A stretch of 64,000 nucleotides of DNA from Acidobacteriota bacterium (GTDB lineage: Bacteria > Acidobacteriota > UBA890 > WLXD01): the NCBI GenBank assembly GCA_012103255.1, contig WLXD01000003.1, positions 205,984 to 269,983 on the forward strand, written 5' to 3'. Position numbers and translations under genes: made by a program. Below the pieces are notes generated by a model. It had not been told where the DNA came from, ran no database searches, and saw only the letters and a list, made by a program, of their open reading frames with translations. This document shows, in pieces, positions 2,760 to 16,407 of this stretch; within the stretch, counting starts at the first letter, position 1; each line of letters starts with the position of its first letter.

Positions 2760-3451
2760 TTACCACAGTTGGTCTCTGGGCTCGCCGTTTCGTCTTGGCC
2801 GCGGCCGTGCTCGTGGTGAGCAGCCCGGCGTTGGCGCAGGCACGCGTCGGCTTCACTGTAGGGCCGGCGCTCTCCAAGGTCTCCGGCGAAGGAATCAGTT
2901 CATCGGACGCTCAGTGGGGCATCATGCTCGGCCTCAACCTCGAATACGAGATAGCCCGCGACTGGCAGATCGATCTCGAGTTCGGGCTGTCGCAGAAGGG
3001 TGGCGACAAGGTCGTCACCCCTGACGGCGTTTTCGACTATCGCTTCGACTACATCGAGATTCCTCTCACAGTGAGTCGGTTGTTCTGGCTCAACGACGGT
3101 CCCTGGGCGGTCTCGCCCTTCGCGGGCCTGTCGATCGGCCTCAAATCCAAATGCGCGATCCGACCGGCTGGCGACCGTGACGTCGAGTTCGAGGAATGCA
3201 CGGTGAGCACACCCGGCGGCGACACCGTGAGTCAGATGTACGGGTTGCCCTTCGGTGTCGCCCTACGCCGGCGATATCCAGGGGGATCATCGTTCGCCGT
3301 CGAAGCCCGCTATACCGCAATGCTGAACTCGGGCACCGAAGCCGGGACCTTCATGGGCAAGTCCAACACTTTCGCCGTCATGGCCAGCTTCACCTTCCCG
3401 CTCGATACGGGATGGCGAGGCACGCCGTCCGAGCCCAACCCAAACCGCTGA
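2753..3451 (+). CDS. Outer-membrane beta-barrel protein (PorT/OmpA-barrel-like)
   Basis: 232 residues starting with ATG that overlaps the preceding stop. A signal peptide covers about residues 1-26 (ending ALAQA). The mature part has the RVGFTVGPALSKVSG opening, the YIEIPLTVSRLFW strand and the PFAGLSIGLKSKC segment that recur in the PorT-family / 'outer membrane protein beta-barrel' domain. The C terminus continues past the last aromatic strand with a polar tail. Function unknown; the tight spacing to its neighbours suggests a shared envelope role. Confidence 0.65.
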   Translation: MVVTTVGLWARRFVLAAAVLVVSSPALAQARVGFTVGPALSKVSGEGISSSDAQWGIMLGLNLEYEIARDWQIDLEFGLSQKGGDKVVTPDGVFDYRFDYIEIPLTVSRLFWLNDGPWAVSPFAGLSIGLKSKCAIRPAGDRDVEFEECTVSTPGGDTVSQMYGLPFGVALRRRYPGGSSFAVEARYTAMLNSGTEAGTFMGKSNTFAVMASFTFPLDTGWRGTPSEPNPNR

Positions 3452-13113: not shown

Positions 13114-13844
13114 GCGCCGAAGAGGTCCGCCACAGTCCCGAGGTCGAGGACGAACGTGCCTCCGGCGAAGCCCGTACCGCCAGCGCACTCTTCATCGAAA
13201 TGGGCTGGTCGGCGCGCCCTGACCGACGACAACTGAAGTGGGCCTGGGCGTGGACGATCGGCGTTCACTTCCTGCTCTTCGCCGTCGTCGTGCCGACCCG
13301 TGGAACCGCCGACTTCGCCTTCGACGAACAGCGAACCACCGTCATCAAGCGCTACAAGCCGCCGGAGATCGAGCGACCCAAGACCATTCGCAAGCGGCGC
13401 AAGGCGCAGGCGGTGCCGATTCCGGATCCGACACCGGACGCTTTCGAGCCATTGATTACCGACGAGGAACTGCTCGCGATGGCGCCCGTCGACGCGGTGG
13501 ATCTCGACTGGCAATACGGGCCACCAACGAGCATCGGCCCGCCATTCCAGGCCGTCGCCATCGAAACTGAGGGGCTCGTGCTACCCGCACTGCTCGAGCA
13601 GGTCGAACCCGACTACGACGCGGAGCGCGCCCGCCGAGGCGTACAGGGTGCGGCGGACGTTGAGATTGTGATCAACACCGAGGGCGCGGTGTCCGAGGCA
13701 CGCATCGTCAACAGTTCTACGGACGATACTCTGGATCAGGCGGCACTCGTGGCCGTGCGCAAGTGGCTCTTCGAGCCGGGCAGCCTGGACGGCGAGCTCG
13801 TGCCAGTCCGCGCGATCGTGACGATCAACTTCAGGGTCTACTAG
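13110..13844 (+). CDS. TonB-like energy-transducer protein
   Basis: 244 residues; ATG overlaps the previous stop (ATGA). A single transmembrane helix at about residues 44-61 follows a cytoplasmic head. Then comes a charged, Pro-containing linker (KRYKPPEIERPKTIRKRRK and PIPDPTPDAFEP), and a C-terminal TonB domain (residues ~150-244) with VEPDYDAERARRGVQG, VEIVINTEGAVSEARIV and RKWLFEPG. TonB family proteins couple the inner-membrane proton force to outer-membrane receptors; no ExbB/ExbD is in the window. Co-transcription with the VWFA-type protein is a recurring acidobacterial arrangement in my experience, but this is inference. Confidence 0.85.
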   Translation: MSAEEVRHSPEVEDERASGEARTASALFIEMGWSARPDRRQLKWAWAWTIGVHFLLFAVVVPTRGTADFAFDEQRTTVIKRYKPPEIERPKTIRKRRKAQAVPIPDPTPDAFEPLITDEELLAMAPVDAVDLDWQYGPPTSIGPPFQAVAIETEGLVLPALLEQVEPDYDAERARRGVQGAADVEIVINTEGAVSEARIVNSSTDDTLDQAALVAVRKWLFEPGSLDGELVPVRAIVTINFRVY

Positions 13845-15337
13845 GACCTACGCCGACCACCTCGTCCGCGACCGCGACCTCGGCCTCGTCCCCCGCCACC
13901 ACCACCGCCGCCTCGTCGCTTGCCGCCACCGCCCTTCGCGTAGGGGTCTTTGTCGTTACCGTCGGACGGCGGGTTCACCACAGGTGCCACGATGCCGTGG
14001 AGTGACTCCTGATAGAAGTCGTCCAGCATCAGGGCGAGCAAGTTGACCTCGTCGGTGTCCTCGCCGAGGCTCTTCGCCAGCGGCACGAAGCGGCGCATGC
14101 GTTCCTTGCGGATCGGACTACGCTCCCGCAACCGCGCCTCGAGCAGGGCCGTCACGCGCTCGCTGACGATCTGCTCTACCTGTTCCTTGGTCGGTGCGGG
14201 ATATTCCTGCATGTCGAGCTCGTAGAGCCTCGCGATATGCGTCAGTTGCATCTTCTCGAGCCCGGATACCAGCGTCACAGCCTCGCCCGTGGCGCCGGCA
14301 CGTCCGGTGCGGCCGGTGCGATGGATGTAGTCCTCCGGATCCTGCGGCGGCTCGTACTGGAATACGTGCGAAAGCTCGTTGATGTCGATACCCCGAGCCG
14401 CCACGTCGGTGGCGACCAGGAATCGCAATTTCTTTTGGCGAAGCCGAGTGAGCACCTTCTCACGCGCTGGCTGGCTCAGGTCGGAACTGAGCTCATCCGC
14501 GTCGTAGCCGAAGCGCCTCAACACCATCGACACGTAGCGCACGTTCGCCTTTGTGTTGCAGAAGATGATTCCCGAGTGCGGATTCTCGAGCTCGATGATC
14601 CGCATGAGGGCGCGATCCTTGTCCATCGACGGCACGTCGCAGAACGCGTGGACTGTCTCGGCAACGTAGACGTGATCCTTGCTGAGGCTCAGGAAGTCGG
14701 GCGTATCGAGGAACTCATGCGCCAGGCTGAGCACCACCTGCGGGAACGTCGCCGAGAGCATGTAGCCGTTGACGCCAGTATCGGGAACGAACTCGTCGAG
14801 ACGCTTCATGTCCGGGTAGAAGCCCATCGAGAGCATCCGATCTGCCTCGTCGAAGACGAGCATCTTCAAGCCATCGAGCTTCAGGTTCCCCTTGAGCAGA
14901 TGATCGAGGATACGTCCCGGAGTTCCTACAACCAGGGGGACGCCTCGCGCGAACGCATCGAGCTGGGGCCCGTAGGCAACACCTCCATATACGGCCGTCG
15001 CTTCTATGGCGCTGTCGCCGGCCAACATCTGCGCCTCGGTGACCACCTGCTGCGCCAACTCGCGCGTCGGCACGAGAATCAGCGCCTGGCACTGTTTGGC
15101 CTCAGTGTCGATCCGCTCGATCAATGGAAGTAGAAACGCGCCCGTCTTGCCGCTGCCCGTTTTGGACTGAACCATGAGGTCGCGACGAGCGAGCACGTAC
15201 GGCAGCGTCTTCGCCTGCACGGGCATCAGGTCCGACCAACCCACGCGCGTCGCCGCCTCGCGCATCACGTCGGAAAGTTCGCTGAATTGCAGCTCAGGTA
15301 GGGCGTTGTCTGGTTCTACGCGATCACTGTCGTTCAT
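13841..15337 (-). CDS. DEAD-box RNA helicase with glycine/arginine-rich tail
   Basis: 498 residues with the full DEAD-box set: Q motif (PVQAKTLP), motif I SKTGSGKTGAF (about 58-68), PTRELAQQ, TPGRILDH, DEADRM (about 165), SAT, and HRTGRTGRAG. The C-terminal ~35 residues are almost entirely Gly, Arg and Lys (RGRGRGRGRGGRRRS), an RNA-binding tail. Similar to RhlE/DeaD/CshA proteins, which remodel RNA during ribosome assembly and cold adaptation; I cannot choose among these. Its stop shares a CTAG with the convergent TonB-like gene. Confidence 0.93.
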   Translation of the reverse strand: MNDSDRVEPDNALPELQFSELSDVMREAATRVGWSDLMPVQAKTLPYVLARRDLMVQSKTGSGKTGAFLLPLIERIDTEAKQCQALILVPTRELAQQVVTEAQMLAGDSAIEATAVYGGVAYGPQLDAFARGVPLVVGTPGRILDHLLKGNLKLDGLKMLVFDEADRMLSMGFYPDMKRLDEFVPDTGVNGYMLSATFPQVVLSLAHEFLDTPDFLSLSKDHVYVAETVHAFCDVPSMDKDRALMRIIELENPHSGIIFCNTKANVRYVSMVLRRFGYDADELSSDLSQPAREKVLTRLRQKKLRFLVATDVAARGIDINELSHVFQYEPPQDPEDYIHRTGRTGRAGATGEAVTLVSGLEKMQLTHIARLYELDMQEYPAPTKEQVEQIVSERVTALLEARLRERSPIRKERMRRFVPLAKSLGEDTDEVNLLALMLDDFYQESLHGIVAPVVNPPSDGNDKDPYAKGGGGKRRGGGGGGGGRGRGRGRGRGGRRRS

Positions 15338-15957
15338 CGGTCCTCGGCGGCAGGCTGCCCTGCTGTCGGCAGCGCCTGCAGACGTTCCACCAGGTCCGCC
15401 GTCGGCGGACGGAGTCGGTAGTTCGTTTCAGTAAAGAAATATCGGACGACCCGGTCGCCATCGAGAATCGCGACAGTCGGGTGCGGAATCAGTCGGCCGC
15501 GGGAGTCCATCTCATTGAGAAGGCCCCAGCCGGAAATCGTCACGGCCTCGGGATCCAGGAGGATCGGGAAAGGCAACGCTTCCTGGTCCCGGAAGTCTCG
15601 CAGCTTGTCAGCGTCGTCGTTGGCGATCACCCACAGCTCGGCACCGGTTTCCTGGATGTTCTCGTAGAAGTCGCGCAGCTCACCGAGCTGCGTACGGCAC
15701 CAGGGTCACCAGGTCCCCCTGAAGAACAGGAGCAAGATCGGTCGGTCAACGGAGGCGAGGTCGTAGGTATCGCCATCAATCGAATCGAGCGAGAACGTGG
15801 TCGGAGGAACTTCGCCCACCACGATGTTGCTCTCGTGCGGCGCCCCTGGCGCGTTGCGATCCTGTTGTTGAGCTGAGGCTTCTGCCGGTACGGTCGCGAC
15901 GGCGAGGGCCAGCACGACACTAGCAATTTTGATCGGACGCGTGAGGGATCGGTGCAT
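15334..15957 (-). CDS. Secreted AhpC/TSA-type redoxin, probable selenoprotein (Sec84)
   Basis: Read with one in-frame TGA (15706-15708) as selenocysteine, this is a 207-residue protein: signal peptide (about 1-30, ending ASAQ), then LLLFFRGTW-U-PWCRTQLGELRDFY, then the redoxin core (ELWVIANDDADKL, FPILLDPEA, HPTVAILDGDRVV). The TGA falls exactly on the first Cys of the CPxC site of peroxiredoxin-like proteins, and Cys87 gives a UxxC pair. Homology continues unbroken on both sides in the same frame. A perfect hairpin with loop GGU lies just after the TGA. Expected role: periplasmic peroxide or thiol redox enzyme. The stop overlaps the helicase start by 4 bases. If Sec is not inserted, the product is a useless 83-residue fragment. 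Confidence 0.82.
15674..15692 (-). promoter_or_regulatory. Candidate bacterial SECIS hairpin in the redoxin gene
   Basis: On the RNA, 8-base arms CGCAGCUC and GAGCUGCG pair perfectly around a GGU loop, with the first arm starting 13 nt after the UGA. Bacterial SECIS elements recognised by SelB are hairpins immediately downstream of UGA with an apical loop containing GU some 20-25 nt away. Here GU is at positions 26-27 counting the U of UGA as 1. Folding and SelB binding are inferred. Confidence 0.65.
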
Positions 15958-16116: not shown

Positions 16117-16407
16117 ATGGCTACCTTCATCGTGCTGCTCGATTACACCGACAAAGGCGTGCGTGAGATCAAGGACTCGCCGCACCGCGCCGACAGCTTC
16201 AACGAGTTCGCCGAAAAGTCGGGAGCCCGTGTCGTCAGCCAGTACTGGACCATCGGTACGCACGATGGTGTGCTCGTGCTCGAAGCACCGTCAGACGAGA
16301 TCGCCGCGTCCATCCTCATGCACCTAGGCGCCAGCGGGAACGTTCGCACCACCACCCTCCGTGCATACGACTGGGCGGAAGCTCAGGAGCTCATCGCCGA
16401 AGCCTGA
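16117..16407 (+). CDS. GYD-domain protein
   Basis: 96 residues, ATG start, no signal peptide. MATFIVLLDYTDKGVREIKD opens a ferredoxin-like fold of the GYD family (pfam08734), and the family's GxhD segment appears here as GTHDGVLVLEAPSDE. GYD proteins are small stand-alone alpha/beta proteins of unknown function that probably oligomerise like dimeric alpha-beta barrels. It stands alone between convergent and divergent neighbours. Confidence 0.85.
   Translation: MATFIVLLDYTDKGVREIKDSPHRADSFNEFAEKSGARVVSQYWTIGTHDGVLVLEAPSDEIAASILMHLGASGNVRTTTLRAYDWAEAQELIAEA

Follow-up and report, generated by a model that had tools for sequence, protein, structure and literature searches.

The DNA analyzed here, hereafter called the window, is a 64,000-nt stretch from an Acidobacteriota bacterium (assembly GCA_012103255.1, contig WLXD01000003.1, positions 205,984–269,983). 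It carries on its minus strand a redoxin reading frame whose sole interruption is a single internal TGA codon (Table 1). When this codon is translated as U, the frame yields the protein MHRSLT...FRGTW-U84-PWCRTQLGEL...AAEDR and is closed by a second TGA. The read-through protein matches the AhpC-TSA domain (PF00578) over residues 54–173 with an E value of 1e-22, wherein both halves flanking the TGA are covered, and it also matches the Redoxin domain (PF08534, E 1.1e-17). The fact that the PF00578 match spans both halves indicates that they form one domain encoded by a continuous frame.

A first-pass annotation of the locus had proposed that the two halves make up one intact AhpC/TSA-type protein and that the TGA occupies the first cysteine position of the active-site motif (FRGTW-TGA-PWC). 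The domain match that runs through the TGA bears out the first proposal, and the second can be read directly from the translation, in which the motif takes the UxxC form U84-P-W-C87. As that annotation also anticipated, the mechanically called open reading frame (ORF) is broken in two at the TGA, and a routine gene caller would therefore divide the gene.

Table 1. Positions in the window of the redoxin gene, its predicted elements and the overlapping helicase gene
Feature	Positions	Strand	Description
Predicted selenoprotein gene, Prx-like/AhpC-TSA redoxin	15334–15957	−	207 residues with U at residue 84; terminal TGA at 15336–15334
In-frame TGA, predicted Sec codon	15706–15708	−	First position of the U-P-W-C active site; TGA at this codon in 36 distinct genes
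Candidate bacterial SECIS-type apical hairpin	15674–15692	−	Stem CGCAGCTC/GAGCTGCG, loop GGU at 15684–15682
Probable signal peptide	15871–15957	−	Residues 1–29; hydrophobic stretch and ASA|Q cleavage motif, identified by eye
DEAD-box RNA helicase gene	13841–15337	−	ATG at 15337–15335 overlaps the redoxin stop TGA at 15336–15334

The start of the helicase gene and the end of the redoxin gene share an ATGA overlap (15334–15337), which is also present in a relative from the same genus (L081, at about 3368–3371), whose helicase shares 81% identity. In none of the other relatives checked did the helicase turn up next to the redoxin, the flanks available there being short. On the opposite side, a gene for a GYD-domain protein (16117–16407, plus strand) adjoins the redoxin gene in divergent orientation, and such a gene also lies next to the redoxin in the genus and family relatives. 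A promoter and terminator scan returned terminator-like matches and no promoter.

A candidate SECIS hairpin behind the TGA codon

The RNA immediately behind the TGA can fold into the hairpin CGCAGCTC-GGT-GAGCTGCG, which begins 13 nt after the TGA and is exactly the perfect 8-bp stem with a GGU loop that the first-pass annotation had described. Its computed energy ranges from -14.8 to -17.7 kcal/mol, varying with the stretch that is folded. The published model for bacterial SECIS elements (bSECIS) specifies a loop of 3 to 9 nt with a G in the first two loop positions, a stem of 4 to 16 bp, a distance of 16 to 37 nt from the UGA, and an energy of at most -7.5 kcal/mol (PMC13188914). The redoxin hairpin agrees with this model in every respect, with its 3-nt loop beginning GG, 8 bp, 21 nt between UGA and loop, and an energy no higher than -14.8 kcal/mol.

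Compared with plain shuffles of the sequence, the hairpin gives a z score of -1.16, which is not significant. We therefore relied on synonymous recoding and on covariation instead. Synonymous recoding is the proper control because the QLGEL peptide encoded here is itself prone to such a stem. Indeed, the codons CAG-CTC-GGT-GAG-CTG readily pair, and 2 to 6% of synonymous recodings match or beat the hairpin of this single gene. In one gene, then, the hairpin is only modestly unusual, and it is the comparison across relatives that provides strong sequence evidence for it.

This evidence includes the pair formed by bases 21 and 31. Base 21 is at the third position of the Gln codon and base 31 at the first position of the Leu codon, such that both are synonymously free, and the two nonetheless covary (Fisher p 2e-7, kinship ignored). 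Among the 32 genes encoding Gln and Leu at these sites, the pair is G-C in 21, A-U in 10, and G-U in one, whereas A-C never occurs, giving Watson–Crick pairing in 31 of 32. The underlying change is a synonymous compensatory switch in the stem from CAG...CTG to CAA...TTG. Base 21 changed at least five times on the protein tree, and on well-supported branches its partner moved in the same way, rarely not at all, and never in the opposite direction; the independent double changes on such branches number three, too small a number for a sign test to reach significance. Two-sided changes are also seen at pairs 22-30 and 24-28.

The hairpin might instead be a side effect of encoding the conserved QLGEL peptide, with selenocysteine still being inserted by means of another signal. 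The ease with which these codons pair and the share of recodings that reach the observed value speak for this possibility, as does one gene with cysteine at the active site (L077) that has a weaker but similar stem. It is nevertheless very unlikely, because the 21-31 pair is kept by synonymous double changes, because three pairs show two-sided changes, and because genes that do not encode QLGEL (L027, L038, and L041) fold other stems located 16 to 25 nt from the UGA. Relative to synonymous recodings, the mean folding z score is -1.5 for the genes with TGA and -0.3 for those with cysteine, whose hairpins are on average shorter and weaker.

Conservation of the TGA codon and selenocysteine genes of the host

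In all, 36 distinct genes carry TGA at this codon of the redoxin; they come from Acidobacteriota, Candidatus Poribacteria, and one Archangium bin (Myxococcota). This count combines the closest relatives, a wider sample of the phylum, and named genomes, which were scanned with a four-row alignment without a U column. The redoxins sharing the TGA include those from the same genus (68% identical) and the same family as well as several from the same order, whereas TGC or TGT is present in seven more distant genes. The first-pass annotation had regarded TGC or TGT in relatives as evidence against a selenoprotein; in the nearest relatives, the codon is TGA. A point on the other side is that, on the redoxin tree, the distribution of selenocysteine and cysteine forms is patchy, with four changes.

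One could argue that the gene is a pseudogene in which a nonsense mutation or a sequencing error turned an active-site TGC or TGT into TGA, given that the TGA splits the called ORF and that cysteine forms exist among distant relatives. However, a private nonsense mutation is ruled out, since 36 distinct genes spread over several phyla share TGA at this one codon, and the frame is otherwise undamaged. Moreover, measured against the 68%-identical genus relative, dN drops from 0.37 in the part before the TGA to 0.20 in the part behind it, where only this before/after contrast in dN is meaningful because dS (about 1.7 and 2.0, respectively) is near saturation. Behind the TGA, the differences from this relative number 19, 20, and 73 at codon positions 1, 2, and 3. 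A dead 3′ half would not give such a substitution pattern, and constraint at the protein level, as judged from these substitutions, continues past the TGA. Together with the covariation in the hairpin, these observations make a pseudogene highly improbable, and we rejected this reading, in line with the earlier judgment that a random nonsense mutation is hard to reconcile with the data.

If the UGA is decoded as selenocysteine, the genome should be equipped for its insertion. The four genes that the first-pass annotation had named for inspection are all present: selA (534 bits), selB (346 bits), and selD (330 bits) score above their curated cut-offs, and selC, the gene for a tRNA-Sec with the anticodon UCA, scores above its gathering score (65.9 bits) and is called by ARAGORN as well. 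The selD gene carries an in-frame TGA of its own at the catalytic position (TSGG-U-AAKVGPG; L048:1531, G000:C2), and its product is thus a SelD of the selenocysteine type. In addition, a second redoxin with an in-frame TGA at its active site (FFRGGW-U-PYCC; L097:874, G000:C4 near 325573) lies on the same contig at a distance of about 104 kb, and its orthologue within the genus also has the TGA (L098:663).

Across the phylum, selA occurs in 22 of the 24 genomes that have a TGA redoxin of this kind (counted by hand), compared with 191 of the 297 genomes in the phylum sample; the difference from the rest of the sample gives a Fisher p of 0.003, kinship being ignored. The two TGA-redoxin genomes for which no selA was detected (those of L021 and L062; G007 and G225) are drafts that are 75% and 77% complete. 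Among genomes with a cysteine redoxin, three of seven have selA.

Decoding of the UGA as another amino acid, either through genome-wide reassignment or through simple readthrough with Trp or Cys inserted, has nothing direct in its favor and is extremely improbable: TGA closes 6 of 27 long, non-overlapping ORFs in the window and hence serves as an ordinary stop, which led us to reject reassignment, and the genome has tRNA-Sec and SelB while the TGA falls exactly at the catalytic cysteine position.

Predicted function and relation to known selenoproteins

The conserved TGA, the selenocysteine genes in the genome, and the hairpin with its compensatory synonymous changes uphold the proposal of a probable selenoprotein. 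Judging from sequence comparison, the gene very probably encodes a Prx-like thiol/selenol oxidoreductase, likely exported, with a Sec-x-x-Cys active site in which UGA84 is decoded as selenocysteine. The AlphaFold model of the protein (pLDDT 86) has a thioredoxin fold, and its nearest structures are of the PrxQ/AhpE type, with the ResA type scoring slightly lower. The N terminus is modeled with low confidence and, when read by eye, probably represents a signal peptide; this apparent signal suggests that the redoxin works outside the cytoplasm.

During translation, SelB with Sec-tRNA(Sec) would bind the hairpin that directly follows the UGA, and selenocysteine would be inserted at residue 84 instead of termination taking place. 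From the chemistry of the thioredoxin family, selenocysteine is expected to be the attacking residue of the UxxC pair. Its selenol would act as the nucleophile outside the cytoplasm, Cys87 would resolve the selenenylsulfide, and the redoxin would thereby reduce disulfides or hydroperoxides.

Selenoproteins of this general type are known. The Sargasso Sea work (PMC1088965) described Prx-like proteins with UxxC, and the Global Ocean Sampling data yielded 225 sequences of the family Prx-like 1 (PF00578, UxxC; PMC2398784). Acidobacterial selenoproteins were already counted in 2006 (PMC1794560), and the Prx-like UxxC family appears in a review from 2026 (PMC13188914). The acidobacterial redoxin resembles these proteins in its AhpC/TSA fold, in having UxxC where true selenocysteine-containing peroxiredoxins have TxxU, and in the position of its candidate SECIS element within the coding region right after the UGA. 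When compared by description, it differs in its origin from an Acidobacteriota lineage, in the sequence WUPWCRTQLGEL that bears the hairpin and in the ATGA overlap with the helicase gene.

Other families fit less well. The redoxin shares UxxC and a PF08534 match with the selenoproteins called "Redoxin family protein" (PMC13188914), but the Prx-like label is more fitting because PF00578 outscores PF08534. Its best NCBIfam match, the SelL-related redox proteins (NF040769), has a redoxin fold in common with it, but membership was rejected because the score of 39.8 bits lies well below the cut-off of 120. Selenocysteine-containing peroxiredoxins likewise have the same fold, and PrxQ/AhpE proteins are among the nearest solved structures. 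However, in the alignment with the PrxQ structure 2cx3, it is Cys87 that occupies the peroxidatic position, whereas U84 lies three residues before it, and the PxxxTxxU motif of those peroxiredoxins was not found in the redoxin, whose motif is UxxC. Its assignment to the known Prx-like UxxC selenoproteins is thus well supported by sequence features, making it a further representative of a gene type described before.

The ATGA overlap with the helicase gene is the only unusual feature of the redoxin gene. Because of this overlap, translation of the helicase could be coupled to successful selenocysteine insertion, such that selenium supply would tune a DEAD-box RNA helicase, but we consider such coupling improbable.

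The redoxin gene is a clear-cut example of an enzyme that routine gene calling would truncate right at the catalytic residue. The selenocysteine trait appears to be well represented among the Acidobacteriota, many families of which have TGA redoxins of this type. The switches from CAG...CTG to CAA...TTG give an example of an RNA hairpin under selection within coding sequence, and they could be useful for training SECIS predictors.
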